Shown in pieces: positions 7,022 through 48,036 of a stretch of 50,244 bases of DNA. Origin of the DNA: a virus; the IMG/VR virus record IMGVR_UViG_3300005663_000064, positions 1 to 50,244 of that record, one strand, 5' to 3'. How positions within the stretch are numbered: the first letter of the stretch is position 1; each line of letters opens with the position of its first letter. The position numbers and the translations under genes are program-made. The notes beneath the pieces were generated by a model. That model saw only the letters and a list, made by a program, of their open reading frames with translations, had not been told where the DNA came from and ran no database searches.

Positions 7022-7719
7022 TGGGTAATTTAACATTTAATTATCAGAAGACTTGCAAGCGGTGCAGAGAAGATAAGTCGTTAAATAGATTTGAATCTTT
7101 ACCTAGTAATAGATTCAGACTTATTTGTAAGGATTGCTATAATAAACGTAGGAGAGAGTTGCACGGAGGTGTTGAAAGAGATAATGTTAGGAGGCTTAAA
7201 AAGCTGAATGGTATTATAAATAAAATAAGTGGTTGTTCTTTATTGTCTATGTATAAACCTGACGATAGTAGCCATTATAGGATTAAATTATCTTATTGTG
7301 GGTTTGAGTGGGATCTAAGAAATTCGAGTTTTATACAAGGAAATAGACCTTGGACTAAGTATAAACAACCAGATTATGTAGATGGTAGTTATGTTTATAA
7401 GTTTTTAGACTGTAAGAAAAAAGTTTTATATGTTGGTAAAAGCTCTTTTGTAAATGAAAGAATGAGTAAACATTTTTCTCCGTCTGAAATTAAAAAGGGA
7501 AAACAATATTGGAAATCAGATGTAGCTCAAGTACTTATTCTTAAATGTGAATCTGAAGCTGATATGCATTTTTTAGAGTCATATTTAATTAATAAAATAA
7601 AACCTAAGCATAATATGGGATCTATTGCTAAAGATCAGTTATCTTTTAATATAGAAATTCCAGAATTTAAGGATATGTGGGTTGAGGCAGTTTATGGCAA
7701 TGTTGACAAAACACTTTAA
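7021..7719 (+). CDS. GIY-YIG homing endonuclease
   Basis: 232 aa. The N-terminal part has a zinc-binding pair (C12/C15 and C36/C39) as in many phage endonucleases. The GIY-YIG domain covers ~120-200: YVYKFLDCKKKVLYVGKSS with the conserved Arg in FVNERMSKHF, and the terminal LESYLINKIKPKHN with its Glu and Asn. The gene is visibly more A+T-rich than its neighbours, a sign of recent insertion between the sugar cassette and the peptidase gene. It overlaps that gene's start by 26 bp. Probably a free-standing homing endonuclease. Confidence 0.9.
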   Translation: MGNLTFNYQKTCKRCREDKSLNRFESLPSNRFRLICKDCYNKRRRELHGGVERDNVRRLKKLNGIINKISGCSLLSMYKPDDSSHYRIKLSYCGFEWDLRNSSFIQGNRPWTKYKQPDYVDGSYVYKFLDCKKKVLYVGKSSFVNERMSKHFSPSEIKKGKQYWKSDVAQVLILKCESEADMHFLESYLINKIKPKHNMGSIAKDQLSFNIEIPEFKDMWVEAVYGNVDKTL

Positions 7720-32172: not shown

Positions 32173-32546
32173 TCCTCTTTATCAATACTTCGTTCAATCT
32201 CGTCAGCCCATTTATAACCCTTACAGGCTTTGCACTCTTTCAACTCGCTATACACCCCAACATACTCATATTCACCAGCTACCCCACAATTTGGACAGGT
32301 ATCCCTTATCGCCTTCACGCTTTTGATTCTGACCTGATCCGCCGGCTCTTTATTCCAAGCGAAGAGCGCGATGCGATCTTTGTCATCTGGCTCAATCACA
32401 TATTTAACCTGCTTCTTATCAAGGTCATCGCATAACCCCTGAACGAACTCTCCGAAGGTTAACTTGGACACTTTGCCAGTCACAAGGTCTTTCACCTGAT
32501 GATTCGGTCTATCCCATGTAGTGAGTCTAACTTTCTTAGCTTTCAT
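32169..32546 (-). CDS. zinc-ribbon protein, unknown
   Basis: 125 aa. C-terminal ribbon with CPNC and CKAC pairs (~84-110). N-terminal half basic with helices. Unknown. Confidence 0.6.
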   Translation of the reverse strand: MKAKKVRLTTWDRPNHQVKDLVTGKVSKLTFGEFVQGLCDDLDKKQVKYVIEPDDKDRIALFAWNKEPADQVRIKSVKAIRDTCPNCGVAGEYEYVGVYSELKECKACKGYKWADEIERSIDKEE

Positions 32547-32853
32547 TCTTCTCCTTACACCATGTATATAGTTCTGCTAACGAGTTGAATTCTATTACCG
32601 CCTCTTGTTGCGAGTCTGTGATGGATACCTGACCATAAACGTTGATTACCAATTCGTGCATGTCGCTATACTCCTCACTTACAACCTCAAGGACAGACTC
32701 AATCTTCGAGTCAGACCAATACTTGACCGTTCTACCCATCACGTCAAGCTGACACTCCATAGGCTGGAGCCTAAACTTATAACAGAAGGCATAGCCCAAC
32801 ACTATACCGGTAAGTAACTGAGAAATAGCAAGCAATATCCAAAAGGCTATCAT
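32536..32853 (-). CDS. membrane-anchored small protein
   Basis: 105 aa. One transmembrane helix (~2-24, IAFWILLAISQLLTGIVLGY), then a soluble alpha/beta part. Overlaps the zinc-ribbon gene by 11 bp. Unknown. Confidence 0.6.
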   Translation of the reverse strand: MIAFWILLAISQLLTGIVLGYAFCYKFRLQPMECQLDVMGRTVKYWSDSKIESVLEVVSEEYSDMHELVINVYGQVSITDSQQEAVIEFNSLAELYTWCKEKNES

Positions 32854-32865
32854 CGTTTTTTCTCC

Positions 32866-33006
32866 TCAATCTTTATAAGGATATTTACAGTCGGTCATGG
32901 CATCCTTCAACTTTCTTATTCTTTTATTCTTATAGTAGATTCTACCAACGACATAACCGGCAATACCACTAAGGGAGAACAAAAGAAAATATTTGATATA
33001 GTCCAT
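32866..33006 (-). CDS. 46-aa membrane protein, first gene after sigma-54 promoter P1
   Basis: ATG 33006 with GAGGAG at good spacing. One transmembrane helix (YFLLFSLSGIAGYVVGRIYY, ~6-25) and a basic tail. It is the first open frame downstream of the structured leader and the sigma-54 element at 33154. Confidence 0.55.
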   Translation of the reverse strand: MDYIKYFLLFSLSGIAGYVVGRIYYKNKRIRKLKDAMTDCKYPYKD

Positions 33007-33032
33007 AATCAACTCCTCGTTACGTTAATAAA

Positions 33033-33130
33033 GCGCAGTCAGGCAGTAGGGTTTTCACTGCAACAATACCTGACTATCGGCATACCGGGTCGCCACATCT
33101 ATCGTCAGACTCCCACACCACTGACTGCAC
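33033..33130 (-). ncRNA. structured leader RNA with alternative pairings (RNA-A)
   Basis: The 98-nt stretch can close on itself: GCAGTCAG at 33035-33042 with CTGACTGC at 33121-33128. Inside are GCAGT/ACTGC (33043-33047, 33057-33061) and a weaker GGGTC/GA..CCC stem (33087-33114). The same AGTCAGG (33037-33043) can instead pair with CCTGACT (33069-33075). The predicted sigma-54 start is near 33143, so this would be the 5' leader of the 46-aa gene. Mutually exclusive stems are typical of riboswitches and attenuators. No known class is recognised. Confidence 0.45.
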
Positions 33131-33153
33131 TTCTATAGTTGTATCTATGGTAT

Positions 33154-33169
33154 AGCAATCTCTGTGCCA
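33154..33169 (-). promoter_or_regulatory. sigma-54 (RpoN) promoter P1
   Basis: Minus strand TGGCAC-A-GAGA-TTGCT: the -24 GG and -12 GC are exactly 10 bp apart and every conserved base of TGGCAC(G/A)-N4-TTGC(A/T) matches. Predicted start near 33143, just before RNA-A and the 46-aa gene. Confidence 0.75.
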
Positions 33170-33206
33170 CAGCGGATTCACGCACACTAGAGTCAAGAGC
33201 GGCGGT

Positions 33207-33266
33207 TCAAGAAGGGTGCGATGGTGGTCGGTTATCGTCCACTGAAGCTTTATCAGGCAGTTTCAT
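33207..33266 (-). CDS. 19-aa microORF upstream of P1
   Basis: ATG directly after the stop of the 107-aa gene with GGAGGAG at good spacing. Pro/Asp-rich 19 codons. It may be a real micropeptide or a chance frame. Its 3' part overlaps a block also seen upstream of P3. Confidence 0.3.
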   Translation of the reverse strand: MKLPDKASVDDNRPPSHPS

Positions 33267-33590
33267 TTACTCCTCCATGATTTGTTCGGTGGTGACACGT
33301 TTGATTAAACGAAACAAATCAGGGTTTCGTGGCAAAAAATGTTTTCGTTCTTTTTTTATATATGTGCGTGCTCCTTTTTTAGTTTTTTGGTAATCATGTA
33401 AATCACCCCAATTACCAAGTTTATATTGCACCACATACTCAACCTTCCCCTCCATTTCAAACAGTTTTTCTATCTCAGTGGCAATGGTTTCGTATTTTTG
33501 ATTCCAAATATCTAAATATGTGAGAGCGTTAACCTCGTAAATAGATTCATTAAGCCTTAACACTTTAATTATTTTATCTCTCCATCTCAC
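33267..33590 (-). CDS. small protein, unknown
   Basis: 107 aa from a GTG inside a GGAGGAGATGTG context. Helical N-terminus (IYEVNALTYLDIWNQKYETI), then beta (KVEYVVQYKLG) and a basic tail. Unknown. Confidence 0.55.
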   Translation of the reverse strand: MRWRDKIIKVLRLNESIYEVNALTYLDIWNQKYETIATEIEKLFEMEGKVEYVVQYKLGNWGDLHDYQKTKKGARTYIKKERKHFLPRNPDLFRLIKRVTTEQIMEE

Positions 33591-33661
33591 ATCTCCTCCT
33601 TTGGCTGGGGGTTAAAATCCACCTTGCCATTTTTAAATGTTACCTCAATTCCCTTTTGCAT
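33587..33661 (-). CDS. 24-aa micropeptide
   Basis: ATG 33661 with GGAG five bases upstream, and the stop overlaps the next start (GTGA). One beta hairpin-like stretch (GIEVTFKNGKVDFN). Short, but coupling on the downstream side supports it. Confidence 0.4.
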   Translation of the reverse strand: MQKGIEVTFKNGKVDFNPQPKEEM

Positions 33662-33662
33662 A

Positions 33663-34091
33663 TTAACTCCTATTTATTATTGTCATCACTGTTGAAATAT
33701 ATTGTCCCTGTTTTAACACAATATGTTGACAGCCTTTAATCTCTCCTATTTCCATTAACCAGCTCTCCCAGCTTTCTGAGAGTAATGAGATAAAATCCTT
33801 TGAACTACCACGCTTTTCATATCTATCGATATACTCATCTTTTAACTTCAAGTCAGGATAAACTAAAATTACTATTATCCCTATCTTAATTACAGAAACC
33901 ACTACAGTTGGGTTTGTGCTGATGAAGATAATATCAGCATTACCGAGAGCTTGTTGTATGTCGGTAATACAGTTTTTTGGAAATTTATCTTGGTTATATC
34001 TCCAGCACTCAAACTCAACGAACCTATCGCTGGCATTACAAAGATGTGTTTTCCCTGTCCCACAAAATGCTGACACAACTATTGCGCTCAT
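33663..34091 (-). CDS. P-loop NTPase (kinase-like)
   Basis: 142 aa. P-loop AFCGTGKT at 8-15 directly after the first strand (SAIVVSAFCGTGKTHL). Further marks: FPKNCITDIQQAL, ADIIFISTNPTVV, IIVILVYPDLKLKDEYIDRY and RGSSKDFISLL. This order is shared by a family of phage/plasmid P-loop proteins related to nucleotide or small-molecule kinases. Substrate unknown. Confidence 0.7.
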   Translation of the reverse strand: MSAIVVSAFCGTGKTHLCNASDRFVEFECWRYNQDKFPKNCITDIQQALGNADIIFISTNPTVVVSVIKIGIIVILVYPDLKLKDEYIDRYEKRGSSKDFISLLSESWESWLMEIGEIKGCQHIVLKQGQYISTVMTIINRS

Positions 34092-34130
34092 CTCATCCTC
34101 CTCTTAGTTAATGAGTTTACTTAGTTTATT

Positions 34131-34144
34131 CCGGCTATCGCCGG
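34131..34144. other. short GC-rich hairpin between genes
   Basis: CCGGC/GCCGG around a TATC loop between the HNH gene end (34178) and the P-loop gene start (34091). No T-run follows on the minus strand, so it may be an RNA stability or weak termination element. Confidence 0.4.
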
Positions 34145-34177
34145 TTGTTGTCTTATCAGTGCAACCGACAGGAGAAG

Positions 34178-34477
34178 TTAATTGCCTAAATTCTTTCTCA
34201 ACCTCCTGGCAGCACCCCAAAGTGTTGATCTATTCTCTTTGTCTTTCACTATTAGATGAACTTTCTCATGACAATCGCCACATAACGGTAATAGATCGTG
34301 TAGATTTTCACGTTTTAGACGATTATACGACTTGTGATGTATCTGTAACGGAACATCGGGATTCTCACAGCAGTAACAGTGTCCTTTATACAATTTGCTT
34401 CTATAATATCGCTTTTTAACAGCTTTCCATTCGTCAGATCGCAGGTAAGCTCGATAGTCCTTGTAGTCGATTCTCAT
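34178..34477 (-). CDS. HNH endonuclease
   Basis: 99 aa. Zinc pair CYCC (~34-37) and CGDC (~66-69) frame the HNH core LQIHHKSYNRL … LLPLCGDCHEKVH. Such small HNH proteins are mobile nicking enzymes in phages. TCAAGGAGAG precedes the ATG. Confidence 0.85.
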   Translation of the reverse strand: MRIDYKDYRAYLRSDEWKAVKKRYYRSKLYKGHCYCCENPDVPLQIHHKSYNRLKRENLHDLLPLCGDCHEKVHLIVKDKENRSTLWGAARRLRKNLGN

Positions 34478-34884
34478 TTGTCTCTCCTTGAACAGCTTGT
34501 CTTGATCTTACTCGACTGACCCAGGCGCAACACTCCGTATGTAGAAGGCGTTCCAGCGATAATCTCAAGTGGCGTTGGCTGAGCGGTTGCTCCCGCCTCG
34601 ATCATCACTGTCCGCAAGTCTTCGCCGCCAGTCTCTTAAGTGTTTTAGCCAATGGTGGTCGTGGTGTGGACATAGTTATATATCAAAAAGGTGTTTCAAT
34701 TGGGTAGGCCCGCTGCTTGTTTCAGACAGCTCATAGAGGCGAATCCCCCTAAGAAATTGTCAACGCAATGCGTTAGGTTTATGTGTGCAATCTTATTAAT
34801 CGCTGACGGCTGTCTCTCCGCTTCAACATCTTAACCTTGCTATTTTAGAGTGCTGCTTCATTATCTCAAGGAATAGCAACAAGT
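34478..34884. other. 407-bp stretch between two HNH genes, hairpin-rich, no convincing gene
   Basis: Contains short inverted repeats (AACGC-AAT-GCGTT at 34763-34775, GCGG/CCGC near 34581-34595, GCTG/CAGC near 34712-34730). One minus-strand frame of 43 codons (34474-34605) overlaps the HNH start by 4 bp, but no ribosome site precedes it. Possibly a remnant of endonuclease-driven insertion or a structured RNA. Confidence 0.4.
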
Positions 34885-35322
34885 TTAAAGACCTTTTTTC
34901 TTTCTAAGCTTACTATTAATCTCATCCATTTTACTGAGATTGAATGGTTTATTTAAGTGGTTATTTTTATTTATACTTCTATTGGTTGGTGTGTTTAATT
35001 TATCTTGAAGTCTTGTCAATTCTTTCTTCTTTGGAGCGTAGGGGGTTAACTCTTCTGGTTTGCTGTGATTGTGATATATATTATGGCATCCTCCGCAGAG
35101 GACAATTAAATCTTCTGATATAATTTCTTCATAAAGACGGTCGTAATTTCTGTGGTGAACTTCGAGCCCCCACCTTATTCCGCATAATACACAGGATCTA
35201 TACATCCGCAAAGTCAATTTTCTCACGTTCTTCCAGTGGGGAGTTCTTAGATAGTGGCGATAAGACTCTCTGTGCTGCCTCTTCTTACTTCTTCTCTTTG
35301 ATCTGTATGGATGATTCGCCAT
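34885..35322 (-). CDS. HNH endonuclease
   Basis: 145 aa. Strongly basic N-terminus, CVLC (~44-47), LEVHHRNYDRLYEE, then LIVLCGGCHNIYHNH: a complete HNH/zinc core. C-terminal 50 residues are Lys/Asn-rich and A+T-rich. Likely a free-standing homing endonuclease. Confidence 0.85.
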   Translation of the reverse strand: MANHPYRSKRRSKKRQHRESYRHYLRTPHWKNVRKLTLRMYRSCVLCGIRWGLEVHHRNYDRLYEEIISEDLIVLCGGCHNIYHNHSKPEELTPYAPKKKELTRLQDKLNTPTNRSINKNNHLNKPFNLSKMDEINSKLRKKKGL

Positions 35323-35331
35323 ATAATTCTC

Positions 35332-35493
35332 TTATTTCACAGCCTCAGCTTCCAGCTTCGCCATTTCACGGTCGCTATACTCTCCATTGCAATCGTCACA
35401 GATCAGCCCACACTTATCCTGCGGATCTTCGTGGCAACCGTGGTAGTCTGAGTCAATTTGTTCATCGCACATGTTACATCGGAATATGCTCAT
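35332..35493 (-). CDS. 53-aa zinc-finger protein
   Basis: ATG 35493 with GGAAGG upstream. Cys pairs RCNMC (6-9), then CH and CGLICDDC (28-35) suggest a small zinc-binding fold. Overlaps the next upstream gene by 20 bp. Unknown. Confidence 0.55.
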   Translation of the reverse strand: MSIFRCNMCDEQIDSDYHGCHEDPQDKCGLICDDCNGEYSDREMAKLEAEAVK

Positions 35494-35620
35494 GCTTGGC
35501 CTTCCATTCTTCTTCAGTTTTAGGTTCTGGTTTTTTATAACAAGGACAGGTGCTTACCCATATAGCATTAACCCGACTGCACTTGGGACACTCCCAACCT
35601 TTTGATGTTTGCTTATTCAT
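35474..35620 (-). CDS. 48-aa zinc-ribbon protein
   Basis: ATG 35620 overlapping the YopX stop (ATGA), with GAGGAGAAGG upstream. CPKC (11-14) and CPC (25-27) with WECPKCSRVNAIWVSTCPC are RanBP2-type/ribbon-like. Unknown partner. Confidence 0.6.
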   Translation of the reverse strand: MNKQTSKGWECPKCSRVNAIWVSTCPCYKKPEPKTEEEWKAKHEHIPM

Positions 35621-36117
35621 GCCTTCTCCTCAGCCTCAGCTTCGAGTAGTTCAGGGTTCTCATGGATATTGCCGATGATTTCAATCCACTCAATATACAT
35701 TTCGGCAACATAAGTAGCCCAATTAGAAATTTCGTAATGGAAGCAAAACGATCCTTGTTTGAAAACTATTTCAGCGATTCTTGTATAGTCCTCTCTTGTG
35801 GTTGGTTTCCCGCATTTTGGGCAGTATTTTGATGTTCCAAGCTCAAGGCTCTCATGACACTTTTCCCCCTTGCAGAATGTTTTTTTCTGTGCAAAATTCA
35901 CCACGTCCCCCTCGTAAATCTCCTTCCTGTTCTTATCCTTTAAGCCGGTAAATTCCCCCACTGTTTCGGGATTGACACAATAACTACTTTTATCGGTTTT
36001 TATCCAGTAACTATTATCACGATCAATAACAAGAGAGCCATAAACCCACTTATTCTCTTCTGGGTATAGTGCATTTTTAGCTTTAACAAATCTACCTCTG
36101 AATTTTATAGTTCGCAT
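35617..36117 (-). CDS. YopX family protein
   Basis: 166 aa. MRTIKFRGRF at the start, WVYGSLV, NPETVGEFTGLKDKNRKEIY, EGDVV and the terminal IEIIGNIHENPELLE match the YopX family found in many phages. A zinc-ribbon insert (CKGEKC … CPKCG, ~83-105) extends the usual length. Biological role of the family is unclear. Confidence 0.88.
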   Translation of the reverse strand: MRTIKFRGRFVKAKNALYPEENKWVYGSLVIDRDNSYWIKTDKSSYCVNPETVGEFTGLKDKNRKEIYEGDVVNFAQKKTFCKGEKCHESLELGTSKYCPKCGKPTTREDYTRIAEIVFKQGSFCFHYEISNWATYVAEMYIEWIEIIGNIHENPELLEAEAEEKA

Positions 36118-36132
36118 ACCTACTCCACAAAT

Positions 36133-36166
36133 AAAAAAAGCTACAGAACCAAACGAAACTGTAGCC
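36133..36166 (-). terminator. intrinsic terminator/attenuator before yopX-like gene
   Basis: GCTACAG (36140-36146) pairs with CTGTAGC (36159-36165). On the minus strand the stem is followed by seven T. It lies after the 31-aa ORF and only 16 bp before the YopX start, so it may act as an attenuator rather than a full stop. Confidence 0.65.
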
Positions 36167-36177
36167 TTTTATAATTA

Positions 36178-36273
36178 TTAACTATGTCTGTTTGGTTTTT
36201 CGTTTTCATCACCGTTTGGTGACATCTTCAATCTATCACTTAATTCTGATAATGTCAATACTAAATTCATCAT
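36178..36273 (-). CDS. 31-aa small protein
   Basis: ATG overlaps the stop of the preceding gene (TAATG). Hydrophobic first helix (MNLVLTLSELSDRLKM), polar tail. It ends 11 bp before the terminator. Coupling supports translation; no function. Confidence 0.4.
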   Translation of the reverse strand: MMNLVLTLSELSDRLKMSPNGDENEKPNRHS

Positions 36274-36461
36274 TATGGAATTGACACTAACGCATGAGGC
36301 GGAACCAGCTCAAATTCACCACGTTGGGTTTGGACTATAGCACATGGTTGACCGAACTCGCTAGCAGATACAAAACCAACGATGTAGCCGAACTCCCAAG
36401 CATGGACTGTTGTAGGTTGGGGAACGGAGTTGTTCATTTTCATTTTTACTTTGATCTTCAT
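36273..36461 (-). CDS. small protein, unknown
   Basis: 62 aa with GAGGAGGAGAT before the ATG. Lys/Met-rich start, then a beta domain (EFGYIVGFVSASEFGQPC; RGEFELVPP). ATGA overlap with the gene upstream. Unknown. Confidence 0.55.
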   Translation of the reverse strand: MKIKVKMKMNNSVPQPTTVHAWEFGYIVGFVSASEFGQPCAIVQTQRGEFELVPPHALVSIP

Positions 36462-36721
36462 ATCTCCTCCTCATCATCTTTGCCAACACAATAAGAGCAT
36501 GGCGGATTAATATGACACGAACAACCATCGTATGTCCCGCCATCATAATCGGAGATGGCATCGTCTAATCGCTTGCTTTGTCCTGGTGCAAAGTGACGGT
36601 CGTAGCTCTTCCTCTTCTCATCCATATTTTTCCATATCTTTTCTCTGAGCTTACGAGTGCACTCTCCGCAGTAGCCATAGTCAGATGCGTCAGGGGTGCA
36701 ACCACACGATAGTTTAGCCAT
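36458..36721 (-). CDS. Cys-rich zinc-binding protein
   Basis: 87 aa from ATG 36721 (AAGGAG upstream); a longer frame to 36811 overlaps the next gene and lacks a ribosome site. Cys clusters SCGC, YCGEC and CSCHINPPCSYC suggest two metal sites. Unknown. Confidence 0.6.
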   Translation of the reverse strand: MAKLSCGCTPDASDYGYCGECTRKLREKIWKNMDEKRKSYDRHFAPGQSKRLDDAISDYDGGTYDGCSCHINPPCSYCVGKDDEEEI

Positions 36722-36932
36722 TAGCCTTCTCCTTTTTATCCACCGTTCGCTGAACCTGTTGCATAGCCCAATCGAGTCTATCTTCAGGCATATTGTCAAC
36801 CACTTTATCAATGTGTAAATCTAAATTGTTATGCGAATACATTCGTTTGAATAGTAGCTTTTCCGCTGTTGTGCATTGCGATAGACCCTTCTTCAAGCTA
36901 TCTCGCGCAAACTTCTGTAATTGGTTATTCAT
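36714..36932 (-). CDS. small helical protein, unknown
   Basis: 72 aa with ATGAGGAGGAGAG before the ATG. All-helical, charged (FARDSLKKGLSQCTTAEKLL). First gene after the long structured noncoding stretch. Unknown. Confidence 0.55.
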   Translation of the reverse strand: MNNQLQKFARDSLKKGLSQCTTAEKLLFKRMYSHNNLDLHIDKVVDNMPEDRLDWAMQQVQRTVDKKEKANG

Positions 36933-37250
36933 CTCTCCTCCTCATATAAAATATAGAGTTGTGTGCTATTACGCCAAAGAGGCGAGGACAGTCTGCCAAC
37001 ACACGTTGATTGACACCGTTCCGACATTGGCTGTGTCTCAAGCCAGAGGTCGCCTAGCTTATTTAAGGCTGCCCACCTCACTCTTTAAATGGTGGCTGCT
37101 TCTAAGCCTACATCCAACTCTATGCTTTGTTAATATAGTAAGGCGGCCGGCAGTTGGCCTGCAACCCACTCGGTCAGGATGCCACTCCACAACCGCCTAT
37201 AAACAGCGACCCAGACACTAGATCATATTTCCTCCAATAACAACCAGCCG
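36933..37250. other. noncoding stretch dense in inverted repeats
   Basis: No convincing gene. Stems include CGCC/GGCG (36972-36984) inside GTGTG/CACAC (36961-37004), GACAC/GTGTC (37012-37037), CCACC/GGTGG nested in AGGCT/AGCCT (about 37066-37110), and AGGCGG/CCGCCT (37141-37198). On the minus strand a GGAGGAAATATG is followed by a stop after two codons, which may be the relic of a lost gene. Probably transcribed, structured RNA. Confidence 0.45.
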
Positions 37251-37360
37251 GAGAGCGCAATAGGCGTGCGTGCAACGCCTCGTTTTACGTGGACGGTTAT
37301 GGCTATATGTTAAAGCAGAGCCACACCATAAGATGTCTGCTTTTATCACCTCGCGCTCTC
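37251..37360 (-). ncRNA. three-stem structured RNA candidate (RNA-F)
   Basis: A closing stem of 8 bp (37251-37258 with 37353-37360, GAGAGCGC/GCGCTCTC), an 8-bp hairpin AAAGCAGA/TCTGCTTT (37312-37319, 37336-37343) and a 6-bp hairpin AGGCGT/ACGCCT (37262-37267, 37275-37280). All are perfect and mutually compatible, giving a three-way junction of 110 nt. It lies just downstream of a minus-strand terminator, so it could be a separate transcript. No known RNA class is recognised. Confidence 0.45.
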
Positions 37361-37370
37361 AGACTGCCCA

Positions 37371-37434
37371 ATAAAAAACCCACACGCGGTAAATTCTGGG
37401 AAAGAACAGGCTCAACAGAAGCCCTGCATGTGGG
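37371..37434 (-). terminator. intrinsic terminator with internal hairpin
   Basis: CCCACA (minus; 37429-37434) pairs with TGTGGG (37379-37384), enclosing GGCT/AGCC (37409-37412, 37420-37423) and followed on the minus strand by TTTTTTAT. It ends the transcript coming from about 38.6 kb. Confidence 0.6.
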
Positions 37435-37547
37435 TAATGTGGTTATGTTAATATTGTCCTGTTGATTTGTTCGTTCTTCCCAAAGATTCATTTGATTCAT
37501 TATATATCTATAATCTAACCTTCTAAACACTAAAGTCAAGCTTTATT

Positions 37548-37694
37548 TTACATTACCTTAACAAATATACGATCATGGCTCCAAGCATAAACGCTTTGAT
37601 TTATCTCTTTTATTTCGCCCAGCTCGATCAATCTGTCAACATAAGCCATCATGTTCCAGACATCACTTTGTACATCTTTTAATGCGAAAAACAT
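37548..37694 (-). CDS. 48-aa ORF, probable continuation of the gene at 37745 in the -1 frame
   Basis: From ATG 37694 this reads a protein-like sequence (MFFALKDVQSDVWNMMAYVD…EINQSVYAWSHDRIF). The same frame stays open upstream without any start codon to a stop at about 37765, through LKVRAKANRLLKDAGAFK. This looks like the second half of the 76-aa gene displaced by one base at the TTTTAAAA run (37743-37750). Either an indel, a sequencing error, or two overlapping genes. Confidence 0.45.
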   Translation of the reverse strand: MFFALKDVQSDVWNMMAYVDRLIELGEIKEINQSVYAWSHDRIFVKVM

Positions 37695-37744
37695 TTTAAA
37701 TGCCCCAGCGTCTTTTAGTAACCGATTTGCTTTGGCGCGTACTT

Positions 37745-37975
37745 TTAAAAGGTTTCGCTTTCCATTAACTGTCTTTTATCTTCTTCCAATTCTTGCAGCC
37801 TCAACTCAAAGCCATTAACCAAGGTGCTAATTTCCCGCACGGAATGTTCCAAACTATCCAGCTTGCCACGGAGCGAAGAAATCTCGTGACTGTCTGCTTT
37901 ACCATCTACTTTCCTCCTTATTTCTGAAATTTCTGATTGTAGCTGTCCTGAATCTGTACACGGATGAAGCAACAT
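37745..37975 (-). CDS. coiled-coil protein, possibly frameshifted
   Basis: 76 aa with TAAGGAGAAGTT before the ATG. Strong heptad pattern (SEISEIRRKVDGKADS; LRGKLDSLEHSVREIS). Stops at TAA inside TTTTAAAA. One extra T there would join it to the frame described at 37548, giving about 144 aa. Unknown function. Confidence 0.55.
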   Translation of the reverse strand: MLLHPCTDSGQLQSEISEIRRKVDGKADSHEISSLRGKLDSLEHSVREISTLVNGFELRLQELEEDKRQLMESETF

Positions 37976-37995
37976 AACTTCTCCTTAAAATTAAG

Positions 37996-38150
37996 GCGGT
38001 TGACGACATCGGCTGGCCTCTTGGCTTGCTGCGTATTACCCACTTCCACTTGGCTTAGTCTACCTGGCCGACAGGTTGCAATTAAGGTTATATACTAACG
38101 CCCGGATTTTCACCGTATTTTGCAAGCTCCTGGCGTTAATCGTCAACCGC
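37996..38150 (-). ncRNA. 155-nt structured RNA candidate closed by an 11-bp stem (RNA-E)
   Basis: GCGGTTGACGA (37996-38006) is perfectly complementary to TCGTCAACCGC (38140-38150). Inside are TCGGC/GCCGA (38009-38013, 38067-38071) and AACGCC/GGCGTT (38097-38102, 38132-38137) with a CGG/CCG hairpin in its loop. Again a three-way-junction layout. It fills the gap between the 48-aa gene and the coiled-coil gene, and no convincing ORF lies inside. Confidence 0.5.
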
Positions 38151-38169
38151 GTTACCTGCCACTAATTCA

Positions 38170-38316
38170 TTATTTCTTTTTTCCCTCATAGGTATCTAAA
38201 ATCGCATTGACATTTTTAAGCTGGGTAGGTATCAGGTCGATTCCTTTTAGATACGCAACCAGCCATGATTGCATGTCACTAAACGATTGCTGTTTGATCT
38301 GTTTTACTTTAGTCAT
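38170..38316 (-). CDS. 48-aa small protein
   Basis: ATG 38316 with GAGGAGG at good spacing, overlapping the previous gene by 8 bp. Helical (QQSFSDMQSWLVAYLKGIDL), basic end. Second gene of the P2 unit. Unknown. Confidence 0.6.
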   Translation of the reverse strand: MTKVKQIKQQSFSDMQSWLVAYLKGIDLIPTQLKNVNAILDTYEGKKK

Positions 38317-38581
38317 TGGTTGCCTCCTCTTTGTTATATCCTAAGTGTTTCAACCAAGCATCAATTGTAACTTGGGGGATGTTGGTATTGCACTTCTTAA
38401 TGTCTCTGAAGTTGCAACTCTCAGAGTTTGTCATTGTGCGTAATTGTCCTCCCTGGTAGTTGCTCCAAAACCGGCAAAAGGCAGATTCGTTTGACTCTTT
38501 CACCTTAGTTATAAACCCATATTCAACGTCATAATGTCCAGGATTATACTTTATTTGATCACCTATTTTGAACTTAGGCAT
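38309..38581 (-). CDS. small KOW-like beta protein, first gene of P2 unit
   Basis: 90 aa with AGAGGAGGTTCAACA before the ATG. N-terminal KFKIGDQIKYNPGHYDVEYG, FITKV and FCRFW look like a small beta-barrel. A 70-nt leader separates it from the sigma-54 start. Unknown function. Confidence 0.6.
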   Translation of the reverse strand: MPKFKIGDQIKYNPGHYDVEYGFITKVKESNESAFCRFWSNYQGGQLRTMTNSESCNFRDIKKCNTNIPQVTIDAWLKHLGYNKEEATND

Positions 38582-38661
38582 TGTTGAACCTCCTCTTTTT
38601 GTTTCAAGTTGAAAAATCTTGTGCTTAGACCGGCGTTTTTTTATTTTTCATAATGAAAATT

Positions 38662-38677
38662 AGCAACAATCGTGCCA
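38662..38677 (-). promoter_or_regulatory. sigma-54 (RpoN) promoter P2
   Basis: Minus strand CTGGCACG-ATTG-TTGCT-AAT: full match to the -24/-12 consensus including the flanking C and A/T. It starts directly after the stop codon of the 56-aa gene. Predicted start near 38651, where ATTTTCAT-T-ATGAAAAT forms an inverted repeat (possible operator). Confidence 0.8.
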
Positions 38678-38678
38678 G

Positions 38679-38849
38679 CTAATTTCTCGTTATCGTATAA
38701 AGATCACCCTTAAGCCGATTCACCGGCAGGGCGAACACGGCGATCGTCACGGCTTGCACGTCCTTGATCAGCCCAAAACGGAAGTAATAGGCCAGTAGGT
38801 GGCTGATTAAGGTTGGTTTATGCATGGTGTTAATTAGTTGCCATCCCAT
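38679..38849 (-). CDS. 56-aa small protein
   Basis: ATG 38849 with GAGGAG seven bases upstream. Mixed hydrophobic and basic (LISHLLAYYFRFGLIKD; VTIAVFALPVNRLKGDLY). It ends the P3 transcription unit; its stop touches promoter P2. Unknown. Confidence 0.55.
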   Translation of the reverse strand: MGWQLINTMHKPTLISHLLAYYFRFGLIKDVQAVTIAVFALPVNRLKGDLYTITRN

Positions 38850-38869
38850 TGCTTTACTCCTCTGTTCGT

Positions 38870-39112
38870 TTATAATTTCTTCCAGTAATAACTTGGTTCT
38901 TTTGATGTCGCATCGTCTATAATTCTTGCCTTGTCACCTTTTGCTTCCTGTTTAGCACAATCCAGTGCCGAGTCATAATTGCAATGGATTGTTTTACAAC
39001 CCTCTTCGCCCGTATCGGTATCTAGTATGCCCATATACCAAACATAATATTTAGCGTTTTGTTTTCTGTCGTGATACAGTTCAGGGCCGGTTATGTGGAA
39101 TACGTATGCCAT
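38870..39112 (-). CDS. small protein, unknown
   Basis: 80 aa. Beta hairpin with aromatic residues (AKYYVWYMGILDTDTGEEG) then an Ala-rich helix (DSALDCAKQEAKG). One-base overlap with the gene upstream. Unknown. Confidence 0.55.
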   Translation of the reverse strand: MAYVFHITGPELYHDRKQNAKYYVWYMGILDTDTGEEGCKTIHCNYDSALDCAKQEAKGDKARIIDDATSKEPSYYWKKL

Positions 39113-39393
39113 TAAAACGTTCCCACCAAATCCTCAATATCGCCATTAGCGTCAATGTGATCCCATATCTCGGTTAGCGATACCTGGCTAATGATTTCAC
39201 CGACACCATAAGCGTCAAGCTCGGTGTTGTCATATTCGGTCATGGAAACATCTGACGTGATTCTTTTTTCCTTTGCGATTCGCGCTAAAACCATAACGTA
39301 ATCAGAGTCCCAGCTATCGGGCAGTTTGTGGCAACCCCCATACTTTTTAAGTGGTTTAATGTCATCATACCAACTCATTGAAAATCGTTTCAT
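39112..39393 (-). CDS. small acidic protein, unknown
   Basis: 93 aa, acidic (DSDYVMVLARIAKEKRITSD; WDHIDANGDIEDLVG). Part of the P3 unit; AAGAGGAATAAAGAT before the ATG. Unknown. Confidence 0.55.
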   Translation of the reverse strand: MKRFSMSWYDDIKPLKKYGGCHKLPDSWDSDYVMVLARIAKEKRITSDVSMTEYDNTELDAYGVGEIISQVSLTEIWDHIDANGDIEDLVGTF

Positions 39394-39450
39394 ATCTTTA
39401 TTCCTCTTGTTAATGCCTAAGATCCAGCCAAAAGGGCAAGGAAACAGTTG

Positions 39451-39672
39451 TCAGAGAACCTTTTTTTCAAATACGCTTCTTAATGGGCCGGAAGGAAGTA
39501 ATTTCCAGTCCTTTTGTTTGAACGAGTTTAGCACTATTTTCTTACACTTATTGTCACAGTGTAGAGTTTGCTTTATTCCTTGAATGGTGAAGTTGTTTAC
39601 CCGTTCATTTGGATCAATAGGTAAGATAAATACTCCACATACATCACATTTAGCACCGCTACTTGTTATCAT
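39451..39672 (-). CDS. zinc-binding small protein
   Basis: 73 aa. KCDVCGVF (9-12) and HCDNKC (39-43) give a probable zinc site; basic C-terminus. Unknown. Confidence 0.55.
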   Translation of the reverse strand: MITSSGAKCDVCGVFILPIDPNERVNNFTIQGIKQTLHCDNKCKKIVLNSFKQKDWKLLPSGPLRSVFEKKVL

Positions 39673-39743
39673 TTAACCATCCAAGTTTTTTAAGTCCATA
39701 TTATAATTATCCCCACTGGCCGGATTTCGTCCATTAGGAATCA

Positions 39744-39968
39744 TCAGTTAGGCTGATCTAACATCCAAACTAAATGCTTGCCTATCCATTCCGGTTTTAC
39801 GATTCCTTCGTAGTTATTATTTGGGGTGCAAGTTGGTGCTTTTCTGCATGCTCTTCTGGTGTAAGATAAAAGAAAAGCGCAACCAACGCAAGCGTGACTT
39901 CCTTTTTTGTATAGATACGGTTGTAGTTTATAAGTACTTCCATCATCATCGGTATATTTTAATTTCAT
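39744..39968 (-). CDS. Cys-containing small protein
   Basis: 74 aa with TTGAGGAGATTGT before the ATG. CVGC and two further Cys in RACRKAPTC could form a zinc or disulfide core. Unknown. Confidence 0.55.
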   Translation of the reverse strand: MKLKYTDDDGSTYKLQPYLYKKGSHACVGCAFLLSYTRRACRKAPTCTPNNNYEGIVKPEWIGKHLVWMLDQPN

Positions 39969-39981
39969 ACAATCTCCTCAA

Positions 39982-40236
39982 CTATTCTTTAATCATGGTA
40001 TCAAAGTTATCGGTAAACAATAAATAACCATGATTCGTTTCGCTCAGTCCGATAATTGGGATGCTCCGAAACTTTGTTAAATGGTCGGCAGCAGTGGTAT
40101 ATATCCCATTGTTTTCTTCATAGTCGAAGTCAATTATAATTCTTTTATCGTGTCGGGTGTCGTGTATTCTGATTCTTGCTCCCTTGGTGTCGGTAGGGCC
40201 TATATATTTTACATCAAACGCTCTGTAATTTTTCAT
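39982..40236 (-). CDS. first gene of P3 unit, unknown
   Basis: 84 aa with AGAGGAGGTAGTGAA before the ATG, only 18 nt from the predicted sigma-54 start. Beta-rich (RAFDVKYIGPTDTKGARIRI) with basic and acidic stretches, possibly nucleic-acid binding. Unknown. Confidence 0.6.
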   Translation of the reverse strand: MKNYRAFDVKYIGPTDTKGARIRIHDTRHDKRIIIDFDYEENNGIYTTAADHLTKFRSIPIIGLSETNHGYLLFTDNFDTMIKE

Positions 40237-40264
40237 TTCACTACCTCCTCTTTCAGTTTATTAT

Positions 40265-40280
40265 TGCAAGAAGCGTGCCA
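40265..40280 (-). promoter_or_regulatory. sigma-54 (RpoN) promoter P3
   Basis: Minus strand CTGGCACG-CTTC-TTGCA-ATA: complete consensus match. Predicted start near 40254, giving an 18-nt leader for the 84-aa gene. Upstream (40296-40345) lies a block similar to the one upstream of P1. Confidence 0.82.
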
Positions 40281-40350
40281 GCCCTGATCCATGCTTGATT
40301 CAGAGCCAGCGGGTCAAGGCGATGGACGATTATCGGCCAGTTAAAGTAAA

Positions 40351-40419
40351 TTATTCGGGTTCAATTGTTCCGCCAAATTGCTTTTCCTCAAGTGCTTTGA
40401 TAAGTGCTGTTTTATCCAT
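40351..40419 (-). CDS. 22-aa micropeptide
   Basis: ATG 40419 preceded by GAGGAGG with 7-nt spacing. Helical start (TALIKALEEKQFGG). Short; its excellent ribosome site is the only evidence. Confidence 0.4.
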   Translation of the reverse strand: MDKTALIKALEEKQFGGTIEPE

Positions 40420-40443
40420 TGTGTTTCCTCCTCTTCTATTCCA

Positions 40444-40641
40444 TCAAAACCAGTTATTCCGTATCCTGGTTATATTCTTATAGGCCACTGTCCGGCTTAT
40501 GTTGGGATATTTCTTGCTGTATTCTTTACTTGCCCATAGCATCCGTTGGTAGTTACTGTCATCTTGACCGGATAAAGCACATTTAGCAAGATGAAAAAGG
40601 TTCATCAACTCCGCCTTTTGTTCCTGGTTAAAGTCAAACAT
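40444..40641 (-). CDS. small helical protein, unknown
   Basis: 65 aa from ATG 40641, which has GAGGAGG upstream; a longer frame to 40683 has none. Helical (EQKAELMNLFHLAKCALSGQ) with a basic end (YKNITRIRNNWF). Unknown. Confidence 0.55.
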   Translation of the reverse strand: MFDFNQEQKAELMNLFHLAKCALSGQDDSNYQRMLWASKEYSKKYPNISRTVAYKNITRIRNNWF

Positions 40642-40870
40642 AGTGTTAGTTTCCTCCTCTTTAGTTAAATTAGCTCCATACAAGCTCTGTAAGGGACGAT
40701 CTTTTTAGTTAGGTGTTGTTGGTTCGGCTATTTACCAAGTTAAATAAAGTGGCCATAGCTGGCGTATCATTTGACCTCAACTTGCAAGGTAGCGCTTAAT
40801 CTAACCAGCGCCCGTGTTTGGACAGCCATCACGGCATTATGACCACTATGCAGTTGCAACTTTTGGCTAT

Positions 40871-41071
40871 TTAGTGATAAACCACGTTCAACGTATGGGA
40901 ATCTAATTGTATATCTTCTTCGAACTCATCCCCTTGATAGTTGACCTTAGCAGTTATCAAATCAACATTGACATTAGTCAATAACAACTCACAACCTTTA
41001 GAGTTGTAGACTGTAAGGTTTAACTCTCTAAGAACGGTTAAGACGTCTTTTGTTTGTTGTTTGGTTATCAT
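40871..41071 (-). CDS. first gene of P4 unit, unknown
   Basis: 66 aa with CGAGGAGATAAAGAA before the ATG. A helix (KDVLTVLRELNLTVYN) followed by beta strands (CELLLTNVNVDLITAKVNYQ). It follows the P4 leader. The 230-bp gap downstream (40642-40870) holds a perfect palindrome AGTTGCAACT (40852-40861) and a GCGCT/AGCGC hairpin but no convincing gene. Confidence 0.6.
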   Translation of the reverse strand: MITKQQTKDVLTVLRELNLTVYNSKGCELLLTNVNVDLITAKVNYQGDEFEEDIQLDSHTLNVVYH

Positions 41072-41075
41072 TTCT

Positions 41076-41149
41076 TTATCTCCTCGTTTGGTTTACTTAC
41101 AGCTCCGCCAGTTAAGTCCCATTATCTTGACTTATTGGGGTGTTATCTA
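41076..41149 (-). promoter_or_regulatory. structured leader of the P4 transcript
   Basis: On the minus strand the leader begins near 41149. TAAGTC/GACTTA form a hairpin. CAGTTA near the 5' end can pair with TAACTG just after it, while the overlapping TACAG can pair with CTGTA before the ribosome site. Two competing pairings resemble those of RNA-A. Confidence 0.4.
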
Positions 41150-41159
41150 ACTGTAGTAT

Positions 41160-41175
41160 TGCAATCTTCGTGCCA
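41160..41175 (-). promoter_or_regulatory. sigma-54 (RpoN) promoter P4
   Basis: Minus strand TTGGCACG-AAGA-TTGCA-ATA: full consensus match. Predicted start near 41149, upstream of the 66-aa gene. It is the most upstream of the four elements and lies beside the origin-like stretch. Confidence 0.82.
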
Positions 41176-42587: not shown

Positions 42588-42750
42588 CCTTTCCCTCCTC
42601 ATCCACAAGCCGTTGCATCAGCATCCTGACAGTCGCAGCATAGTTCCTGCTGGTTTCGTTACAGTAAGCGGTAAAATCCCGATAAAGTTTGTGGTGCTTG
42701 GGTTGACCTCTGAATGGGATATGAAGATCCCTGATTGGTATCTTTTTCAT
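42571..42750 (-). CDS. 59-aa ribbon-helix-helix-like protein
   Basis: Overlaps the 167-aa gene stop (ATGA). A strand IPIRDLHIPF is followed by two helices (KLYRDFTAYCNETSRN and YAATVRMLMQRLVDEEGK). That strand-helix-helix order and size match Arc/MetJ-type DNA-binding repressors. Its place as second gene of the first minus unit suits an early regulator. Tentative. Confidence 0.55.
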   Translation of the reverse strand: MKKIPIRDLHIPFRGQPKHHKLYRDFTAYCNETSRNYAATVRMLMQRLVDEEGKDEEEM

Positions 42751-43250
42751 GATATATACTCCGCAAAATTGATAGCTGCTTGCTTCGCTTGATTTAGACC
42801 TGTTATCTTAATCGAACCCCTGAGTCGGAATGGTACTTTTTCACACTCAATGAGAAACCCACATTTGTCTCTTTCTCCTGTTCCCCCTTCAGGATACCAG
42901 TTCTCTTCAAAGAGCATGTCGTTGTACCCGAAACCTTGGATTGCTCGATGACTCCACCCATACCACTTTTCTTCTTTAGCACAGAAACCAATGGAGCAAA
43001 CATATGAAGATACATCTTTCTTTATCGGGGATATTCCGTGTTTTACTATTAACTTATAAGCCCACTTTGAGTCACCTATGTAATGTCCGTAAAGATTATA
43101 AGCCCCTTTTTTTGTTAGTAGAGCGTGCCCTTCCGGTTTGTCTTTAAAGTGTGATAGCCAATATTCATCTCGAATAGTATATCCAGCTTTGTAATGCCTC
43201 TCACGAACAACTCGGTTGCCTTCCTTCTTGTTTAGAATGATCTCGTTCAT
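42747..43250 (-). CDS. first early protein, conserved phage type, unknown
   Basis: 167 aa. VSSYVCSIGFCAKEEKWYGW followed by SHRAIQGFG is a segment seen in early proteins of other phages. No enzymatic signature. First gene after the divergent promoter; no close ribosome site is obvious beyond AAAGGGAAAAAG. Confidence 0.65.
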   Translation of the reverse strand: MNEIILNKKEGNRVVRERHYKAGYTIRDEYWLSHFKDKPEGHALLTKKGAYNLYGHYIGDSKWAYKLIVKHGISPIKKDVSSYVCSIGFCAKEEKWYGWSHRAIQGFGYNDMLFEENWYPEGGTGERDKCGFLIECEKVPFRLRGSIKITGLNQAKQAAINFAEYIS

Positions 43251-45909: not shown

Positions 45910-46248
45910 AAGGCCACGAGTTTTGAGATCGATGATTTACTCGGCAAGGTAGGTGAGGTTGTTGAACGTGTAGCTGATGGTAACTGGATCGTTTCATTTG
46001 GACATCATCGTGTCTATGCTCTCCCTGAACATTATCTCGGCGAGACTGTGCTTAAGATAGTTTATGACGATACTCATGGCACACCGCCTGAACCTGAAGT
46101 TGTTAAGAAGTCTAATGCGAAGAAAGTAGCTACTGCGAAACGTAAAGAAACTATGAAGAAGAAAGTTGCGGCAGAGAAGGTTGCTGTGGAATCTAAAGTT
46201 ACTCTACCTGTAAAAAAGAGGACTGATGGAAGTCTTAACCTCAAGTAG
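45877..46248 (+). CDS. small beta-domain protein with basic tail
   Basis: 123 aa from ATG 45877 (TAGGAG upstream). Residues 15-65 look like a small beta barrel (LLGKVGEVVERVADGNWIVS). Residues 80-123 are Lys/Ala-rich (KRKETMKKKVAAEKVAVESK), a histone-like tail suggestive of DNA contact. Overlaps the large terminase start by 23 bp. Unknown. Confidence 0.55.
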   Translation: MIKVKLCDMALKATSFEIDDLLGKVGEVVERVADGNWIVSFGHHRVYALPEHYLGETVLKIVYDDTHGTPPEPEVVKKSNAKKVATAKRKETMKKKVAAEKVAVESKVTLPVKKRTDGSLNLK

Positions 46249-47269
46249 AACCCATACGAAGCATGATGATATGGTGAAGATGTATCAAGATCCTGCATAC
46301 TTTGATATAAACATCTTGCCTAATCATTTCTGGAAACCTCTTGCTGAAGTTCATTTCAGAATGCAGAGGGCTATCCATTCCACTGTTCCGTTCGTGAACA
46401 TTATCGTCCCTCGTGAATTTGGCAAGACTACCGTAGTTAATTGTGGGTTCCCACTTTACAATATCTGCTTCGGTCTTGAGAGATTTATTGTTATGTGTTC
46501 TGAGACTGCTACCGAGGCGGAGTCCAATCTCCGGACTGTTAAGTATGAACTCGTTACGAATGATCGGATTAAGCATTATTGGGGTGATCTTAAAGTTGAT
46601 CGGGTTAAGGATGAGTTTGGAAAGTGGAATGAAAAATACGCTAAGACGAGTACTGGGATCTACTTGGCGGCGAAGGGTGCCGGATCGCAGATTCGAGGCA
46701 TTAAGGCGATAAACGTCCGGCCTACATTGATCATAGTCGATGATCCGCAGGGAATCCGCACTATTCTTACCGAGCAGACTCTTAACAAGATGGATACTTG
46801 GCTTGAGAATGAAGTTATATTCGCCAGAGCGACTAAGTATCAACGTAAGGTTGGCGGTAAGACTAAGACTTTTCATGGCAAGGTTAGATTACTCGGGACG
46901 GTTGTTCATCATGAGTGTTTGGTTAATCGTAAGCGTAAGGATAGTCGATTTACGACTGTGTTTATGCAAGCGATTGAGCATGATAAGGATGGTAATCGAA
47001 TCAGTTTATGGCCTGAGATGTTCTCTCTTAACTCTCTCGATAAACAGCGGGCTGAGTATAAGGCTAATGGTAAAGAGAAAGTGTGGATGCAGGAGAAGAT
47101 GAATGTGCCGATGTCGGAGGAGGATAAACCGTTTGATAAGAATAGGATTAAGTACTGGGATAATGTTGTTGATGGCGGTAATTCCTATTTCGATATCTAC
47201 CATGGCGTTCCCGTTCTAACGTTTAGTAACCCATGTGTAGGATTAACTGAAGGGATGGATAGTGTCTGA
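46226..47269 (+). CDS. terL: large terminase, ATPase half
   Basis: 347 aa. ATPase core of the packaging motor: Walker A PREFGKTT at 62-69, a GSQIRGI loop at 153-159, Walker B LIIVDD at 168-173, and the FTTVFMQAIEHDKDGN region after it. The real reading frame continues to residue ~330 (HGVPV) and then runs into 17 unrelated residues from an insertion (LTFSNPCVGLTEGMDSV). The nuclease half is encoded downstream at 47431. It belongs at the motor on the portal. Confidence 0.9.
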   Translation: MEVLTSSRTHTKHDDMVKMYQDPAYFDINILPNHFWKPLAEVHFRMQRAIHSTVPFVNIIVPREFGKTTVVNCGFPLYNICFGLERFIVMCSETATEAESNLRTVKYELVTNDRIKHYWGDLKVDRVKDEFGKWNEKYAKTSTGIYLAAKGAGSQIRGIKAINVRPTLIIVDDPQGIRTILTEQTLNKMDTWLENEVIFARATKYQRKVGGKTKTFHGKVRLLGTVVHHECLVNRKRKDSRFTTVFMQAIEHDKDGNRISLWPEMFSLNSLDKQRAEYKANGKEKVWMQEKMNVPMSEEDKPFDKNRIKYWDNVVDGGNSYFDIYHGVPVLTFSNPCVGLTEGMDSV

Positions 47270-47440
47270 TAAAATAGTTCAAGGCGGAAAGAAAGGTCGG
47301 AAGATCGGAAGGAATAAAGTTGAGTGTAAGCGTTATCGTGATGAAGATAGGCGTGAGAAGAATAAACAGAGACGTGCTGAGTTTAGAAAACTTAGACTAG
47401 AAAAAGGTAAGTTGAAAAAGGAACTTAAAAGTGTATAGAC
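47208..47440 (+). mobile_element. 233-bp insertion splitting the large terminase gene
   Basis: TTCCCGT occurs at 47208-47214 and 47441-47447. Deleting one 233-bp repeat unit joins GGC-GTT-CCC-GTA-TAT-ACC in one frame and restores GVPVYTFTAMD, a normal terminase linker/nuclease start, in a 525-aa protein. Inside lies one small gene (47262-47438). The unit is too short and lacks the end bases expected of a self-splicing intron. A gene insertion or recombination product is more likely. Confidence 0.7.
47262..47438 (+). CDS. 58-aa basic protein inside the terminase insertion
   Basis: GTG start four codons before the stop of the ATPase half (8-bp overlap). KKGRKIGRNKVECKRYRDED resembles a small basic protein type common in phage genomes (GKKGRKIGRNK…C..Y…R.KNK). 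Mostly Lys/Arg and likely to bind nucleic acid. It is the only gene of the insertion. Function unknown. Confidence 0.65.
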   Translation: MSDKIVQGGKKGRKIGRNKVECKRYRDEDRREKNKQRRAEFRKLRLEKGKLKKELKSV

Positions 47441-48036
47441 TTCCCGTATATACCTTCACCGCTATGGATATTGCAACCACTGATGCGAAGATTCCGGATT
47501 ATACGGTTATTATAACCGGAGCTACTGACTATAGAAATAACTTGATGGTGCTTGAGATTTGGAAACAGAAAGGGAGCAATCCGATTAATCGTATGAAAGA
47601 AGTGACGAGACAGGTTTTGCATTATCAATCAAGAGTGCTTGGCATAGAGGAAAATAGGGCTGAGGACTTTATCGACATGTACGAATGGCTTCTTGATCGT
47701 GGTGAGTGGGCTCAGGAATTTGGCGAGATAAGCAGAAGTATCGTTAATAGAATTCAGAGACTTCCGCATTACACACAATCCAAGAGGGATAGGATTATTG
47801 ATAGATTGCAGCCAATTATCAATGCTCACTCTCTATGGCTAACTAAGGATTTATCCTGGCTTGCCGACAATCTTGATATTTATCCACAGATTGAATATGA
47901 TGATGATATTGATGCTCTTGAGATGTTACGATATATCGCCCGACCGCCTTCTGAAGATTTGAATATTAGCGGTTACGAGGAGGAAAATTCCTTAACTGTG
48001 CTTGAGTATAACCCAATAACGATGTGTTGGAATTAG
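47431..48036 (+). CDS. terL: large terminase, nuclease half
   Basis: 201 aa from GTG 47431 (AAAGGAAC upstream), overlapping the 58-aa gene. RNase H-like nuclease: AMDIATT with Asp13, LGIEENRAEDF with Glu73/74 and the closing DDDIDALEMLRYI with Asp161. Acts in cutting the concatemer to headful or unit length. ATG 47464 is a shorter alternative start but would drop Asp13 to position 2. Confidence 0.88.
   Translation: MYRLPVYTFTAMDIATTDAKIPDYTVIITGATDYRNNLMVLEIWKQKGSNPINRMKEVTRQVLHYQSRVLGIEENRAEDFIDMYEWLLDRGEWAQEFGEISRSIVNRIQRLPHYTQSKRDRIIDRLQPIINAHSLWLTKDLSWLADNLDIYPQIEYDDDIDALEMLRYIARPPSEDLNISGYEEENSLTVLEYNPITMCWN

Follow-up and report, generated by a model that had tools for sequence, protein, structure and literature searches.

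Likely sigma-54 promoters before small genes of a tailed phage, and arrays of the same element in other viral contigs

Introduction

An ATP-driven activator is needed to turn on sigma-54 promoters, which are otherwise silent, and phage accessory genes placed behind such promoters would therefore be conditional on host physiology. The bacterial sigma-54 promoters of the Salmonella regulon (PMC3844500) and the Desulfovibrio vulgaris regulome (PMC4641369) share with four elements of the phage analysed here an identical -24/-12 element and its spacing, as well as an intergenic position before genes with a ribosome-binding site. The phage copies differ in that they are repeated before small genes, in a phage without a detectable activator or RpoN, and in that no recognisable enhancer is common to all four. 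The Psp phage-shock response, which operates through PspF and sigma-54 (PMC3844500), resembles the reading proposed here in tying phage infection to sigma-54 transcription via an enhancer-binding protein. However, a host operon responds to infection in the Psp response, whereas here the phage's own genes would.

The T4 early and middle, phiKZ-type and SPO1 promoter arrays depend on sigma-70, on sigma factors of the phage or on phage RNA polymerase. They resemble the putative array described here in that strong promoters recur on one strand, ahead of small accessory genes, but differ from it in the promoter type, which in our case would need ATP-dependent activation. No description of a phage sigma-54 promoter array was found in the open-access literature searched, with preprints and subscription papers outside the scope.

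Gene layout of the window

The window, by which we mean the whole stretch of DNA that was analysed, corresponds to an entire IMG/VR record, 50,244 bases long. It belongs to a tailed phage with a P22-type portal and an SU10-type capsid, with matches to P22_portal (8.9e-33), SU10_MCP (1.1e-18) and the terminase family phrog_38 (2.9e-41). The structural genes lie mostly on the plus strand, and the accessory and replication genes on the minus strand. The minus-strand cluster includes HNH, YopX and Lar-like genes, a DnaC-like loader and a Cas4-like nuclease, and begins with the following gene.

42747..43250, minus strand: Type I Thoeris inhibitor, Tad6 family (PF25188, 1.9e-45), without a sigma-54 element before it

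The Lar-like gene, a restriction alleviation gene, thus stands in the same cluster as the Thoeris inhibitor. Among the window proteins scanned with Pfam and PHROGs, none was recognised as an integrase, a repressor, a sigma factor or an RNA polymerase. The original prediction assigned the sigma-54 elements to a phage 'middle' region. This is not shown, as there are no expression data; the sites lie in the minus-strand accessory/early half, leading into the replication genes.

Four elements match the sigma-54 consensus

The elements are listed in the order of the minus strand; the +1 positions are predictions.

41160..41175, minus strand: sigma-54 element 1, TGGCACGAAGATTGCA, by consensus match and matrix; predicted +1 at ~41149; predicted to drive ORF 40871-41071
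40265..40280, minus strand: sigma-54 element 2, TGGCACGCTTCTTGCA, by consensus match and matrix; predicted +1 at ~40254
38662..38677, minus strand: sigma-54 element 3, TGGCACGATTGTTGCT, by consensus match and matrix; predicted +1 at ~38651
33154..33169, minus strand: sigma-54 element 4, TGGCACAGAGATTGCT, by consensus match and matrix; predicted +1 at ~33143

All four match TGGCACR-N4-TTGCW without a mismatch and contain the sigma-54 promoter core (GG at -24 and GC at -12, ten bases apart). They are intergenic; the coding-strand frames across them run for 10-62 codons from stop to stop, none of them long. A sigma-54 weight matrix gave the four elements scores of 18.0-20.4 (maximum 20.4), with the next-best window site at 13.8 and none between. 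The matrix consists of rounded Barrios-type frequencies, so the scores are approximate, while the gap between them is independent of the exact values. The version of the matrix with a five-base spacer (N5) had no match in the window.

Dinucleotide shuffles of the window contained a mean of 0.04 consensus matches, and four or more were reached in 0 of 100 shuffles. Chance matches in intergenic DNA could be considered, since single matches do arise randomly, and most of the single sites examined in terminase relatives of the phage sit in reading frames. However, four matches were seen where 0.04 are expected, and a control with altered spacing (see below) showed no clustering, which all but excludes this explanation. 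The prediction of four 16-bp intergenic elements on the minus strand, matching the consensus at all conserved positions, thus held with coordinates and strand confirmed, as did the chance expectation of well under one. An equal match density in shuffled sequence, named beforehand as refuting the prediction, was not seen, and the matrix scan of the genome proposed with it found only the four claimed sites above 13.8.

Alignment of the four promoter regions showed two invariant blocks, TGGCAC...TTGC and AAC..AA.GAGGAG, and otherwise scattered single columns. The regions may be independent, or they may be old duplicates in which the element and the ribosome-binding site alone were kept. The persistence of a perfect element amid diverged flanks indicates that its function has been maintained.

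Genes and leaders downstream of the elements

The elements at 41160, 40265 and 38662 are separated by 88, 28 and 80 nt, respectively, from an ATG with GAGGAG before it, and the ATG after element 2 is preceded by AGAGGAGG. For the element at 33154, an ATG with GAGGAG lies ~147 nt downstream.

40871..41071, minus strand: small gene of 66 aa downstream of element 1, no family match
39982..40236, minus strand: small gene of 84 aa downstream of element 2, weak match to phrog_3199, function unknown
38309..38581, minus strand: small gene of 90 aa downstream of element 3, no family match
32866..33006, minus strand: ORF of 46 aa downstream of element 4, followed by ORF 32536-32853 (from ORF layout)
33031..33133, minus strand: strong hairpin in the would-be leader of the element-4 transcript (fold z-score -2.9; equalled by 2 of 200 shuffles)

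The window has no match in Rfam, and a tRNA search of it found none.

Sequences upstream of the elements

Two of the elements have alignable sequences upstream.

40283..40371 (approximate ends), minus strand: block upstream of element 2, candidate regulator site, alignable with the block upstream of element 4
33186..33283 (approximate ends), minus strand: block upstream of element 4, alignable with the element-2 block

About 90 bases align upstream of 40265 and 33154 with a score of 48, compared with 36 for the best of 5000 dinucleotide shuffles, and none of 2886 random pairs from the same region reached 48. The block could be a regulator site, a tentative assignment without binding data. No motif is common to all four upstream regions of the window, and an upstream block is alignable for these two elements only. 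The motif CTTGAMCCGCYG was set aside; some of its copies lie inside reading frames and it may be a coincidence.

Arrays of the element in other viral contigs

Scanning IMG/VR with TGGCACG-N4-TTGCAATA returned at least 119 stretches. The control pattern with one extra spacer base returned 35 stretches from the whole collection, none with two in one stretch. Of 236 loci from two sigma-54 patterns, 36 have at least three same-strand sites scoring at least 16, and some of these are short-repeat families. None of the 35 control loci with the longer spacer showed an array with either matrix. The array sample is a partial one from IMG/VR rather than a census, its contigs were chosen for at least one site, and multi-site contigs judged to be repeat families were set aside by eye.

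G039 (IMGVR_UViG_3300021399_000099, 217 kb): ~42 sites, ~30 of them consecutive on one strand, 30-58 kb
G040 (IMGVR_UViG_3300022654_000841, 81 kb): 34 sites, 30 of them on one strand
Other array records, sites per whole record: G045, 8; G079, 9; G041, 6; G081, 7

The reversed control pattern occurs zero or one time per strand in the array records. In G039 and G040, the median distance from element to start codon is 33-35 nt, and ~87-91% of the distances are within 60 nt vs. 36-37% for random positions. Terminases are present in G041, G045 and G081, accompanied in G045 by portal, capsid and tape-measure genes. The families listed for the scanned parts of G039 and G040 include no recognised structural or packaging gene, and the virus status of both records rests on IMG/VR and on jumbo-phage-type genes. 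The hosts of these two are possibly Bacteroidota, as inferred from TonB-plug, BACON and BspA-type leucine-rich-repeat domains and the absence of Shine-Dalgarno sequences.

Five further viral contigs (L178, L275, L305, L311 and L343) contain numerous sigma-54-like matches that form short clusters and often occupy both strands. They were rejected as promoter arrays; the many sites on both strands of the first four and the short repeats that hold the sites of L343 look like repeat families.

The sequences upstream of the elements differ among the array records. In G041, five of the six elements have a TGACATGACA/TGTCATGTCA repeat 20-90 nt upstream, and exact copies elsewhere are nearly absent (~79 kb examined). 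This repeat, seen at loci L347, L479 and L480 of the record, which has a T4-type terminase, is palindromic and directly upstream of the elements, and is a candidate activator site without binding data. At loci L339 and L340 of G039, GGGGTATATTAAAA occurs in either orientation upstream of ~17 of 38 sigma-54 elements; an activator site or a terminator is conceivable. No upstream 7-mer stands out as enriched in G040, the promoters of which often abut stop codons, an unusual position for enhancer-dependent promoters.

The original prediction knew of no well-established phage with such an array. None was found in the open-access literature either, yet the window phage is not unique, as arrays occur in several virus lineages and are far larger elsewhere. 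The window array is probably a small instance of an architecture that recurs among viruses and is undescribed in the open-access literature searched, with promoter function inferred throughout.

One alternative is that the elements bind the sigma-54 holoenzyme mainly as roadblocks that stop read-through between units, or as decoys that titrate host sigma-54 polymerase from stress operons. The holoenzyme is known to bind without initiating unless activated. Consistent with this, no phage-encoded activators were detected, and G040 has ~30 sites without a visible local enhancer. However, the window sites are all on the coding strand before start codons, and the tight spacing to the start codon in the other arrays is expected of promoters and unneeded for decoys. 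We consider this alternative unlikely.

Search for RpoN and activators

The sigma-54 DNA-binding domain (PF04552) is absent from all 30 records tested, among them the window and array records, and the enhancer-binding protein family PF00158 has no match in the window. Four array records have weak PF00158 matches (15-40 bits, E 8e-4 to 4e-11) in AAA proteins that are either long or partial; we infer that the matching protein of G039 is likely its ClpB-like ATPase. The window phage has no detectable RpoN and no recognisable enhancer-binding protein, and does not meet the description of a self-contained phage sigma-54 system. The host is therefore the expected source of activation, unless a phage protein escaped recognition. 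In Proteobacteria, PspF, which is released by phage-type envelope stress, would be a natural, if conjectural, candidate.

Another possibility is that the elements are read by a phage-encoded factor, such as a divergent RNA polymerase, a sigma factor or a DNA-binding protein, with a site that resembles the sigma-54 consensus. It is common for phages to repeat a promoter of their own before many genes, and host RpoN has not been demonstrated. Against this, the exact 12-position consensus with its spacing recurs in unrelated viruses of different GC content and flanks, and neither a sigma factor nor an RNA polymerase of phage type was recognised in the window by Pfam or PHROGs. This possibility is unlikely.

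Relatives of the window phage and of the array records

Single-protein scans with the terminase, portal and capsid found no close relatives of the window phage. The nearest terminase relatives are only 25-30% identical and are spread over many phyla, which makes them uninformative on the host. They have 0-2 sites each, mostly zero or one. Caulobacter phage Kuura, Desulfofustis phage LS06-2018-MD01 and Microcystis phage Mel-JY34 are distant relatives with 24-30% terminase identity, and the capsids of Kuura and Mel-JY34 are ~22% identical to that of the window phage. Kuura resembles the window phage in keeping its structural genes and its replication/small genes on opposite strands. Unlike the window phage, none of the three has a TGGCAYR-N4-TTGCW site. 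The scan of relatives proposed with the original prediction could be run only at the level of such distant terminase relatives; the array is not kept among them, and they give no sign of a conserved array in that clade. Similarly, no sigma-54 site occurs in the 2.2 Mb of six phages distantly related to G041 and G045. The arrays are therefore lineage-specific gains rather than a general phage property.

Such a distribution leaves room for passenger elements, that is, small host-derived cassettes ('morons') acquired with their own sigma-54 promoter, active in particular host states and minor for the lytic cycle. The genes are small and of unknown family, each unit has one promoter, two units have alignable upstream blocks, and distant relatives are without the array. 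However, the element is still perfect where the flanks have diverged, and 30 or more in a row in other contigs are too many for incidental acquisition. Passenger elements are thus an improbable explanation.

Host sigma-54 promoters as the preferred reading

The four window elements are likely promoters for host sigma-54 (RpoN) RNA polymerase, with a probability of ~0.74; initiation, RpoN dependence and the host activator are inferred. This reading is favoured because the consensus and spacing are exact, the elements are intergenic on the same strand before a ribosome-binding site, and only the element and that site are conserved. It is strengthened because arrays of this element also occur in unrelated viral contigs and a change of one spacer base abolishes the clustering. 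Every sequence-level test supported the original prediction in this respect; transcription starts, RpoN dependence and the activator remain inferences for an unknown host.

In the proposed mechanism, the holoenzyme would be held at the elements in a closed complex and stay inactive there until remodelled by a host AAA+ activator, and each element would give a short transcript of one or few small accessory genes. These units would be conditional on a host signal, which may be nitrogen state, envelope stress/phage shock or another activator input. Genes at the head of the cluster, such as that of the Thoeris inhibitor, would probably be on sigma-70 promoters.

Several points stand against this reading. 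There are no transcription data, the host and its RpoN are unknown, and no upstream motif is common to all four sites. G040 has no enriched upstream word and has promoters after stop codons, and the distant terminase relatives are without the array.

A bolder reading, less likely than not, is that phages of several lineages run an accessory regulon via host sigma-54 and await an infection-triggered or nutrient-gated AAA+ activator, some (G040) perhaps without local enhancers and others (G041) with a dedicated palindromic activator site. The combination of an enhancer-free G040 and a palindromic site in G041 would imply a non-canonical, possibly phage-encoded activator.

If host sigma-54 does read the elements, the nutrient or envelope stress state of the host would directly gate phage gene expression, and rpoN status would shape the outcome of infection. 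Host capability could then be predicted from such elements in the genomes of uncultured phages. Running genes through a tightly gated host regulator would be a little-noticed route for phages, and arrays of at least 30 promoters without a recognised activator raise the question of what opens them.

Other features of the window

Between two HNH genes, a long intergenic gap (34500-34640, minus strand) folds better than shuffles (z -2.2) and has no Rfam match. Several other non-coding gaps of the small-gene region are richer in GC and seem unusual, yet their folding is not significant. The large terminase (46226-48036, plus strand) is split, its ATPase ORF (46226-47269) and its RNase-H nuclease ORF (47431-48036) lying in different frames on either side of an ORF of 58 aa; a frameshift, an insertion or an assembly error are all conceivable. 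Glycosyltransferase-like, radical SAM and GIY-YIG genes are clustered among the structural genes at 3757-7719 on the plus strand.
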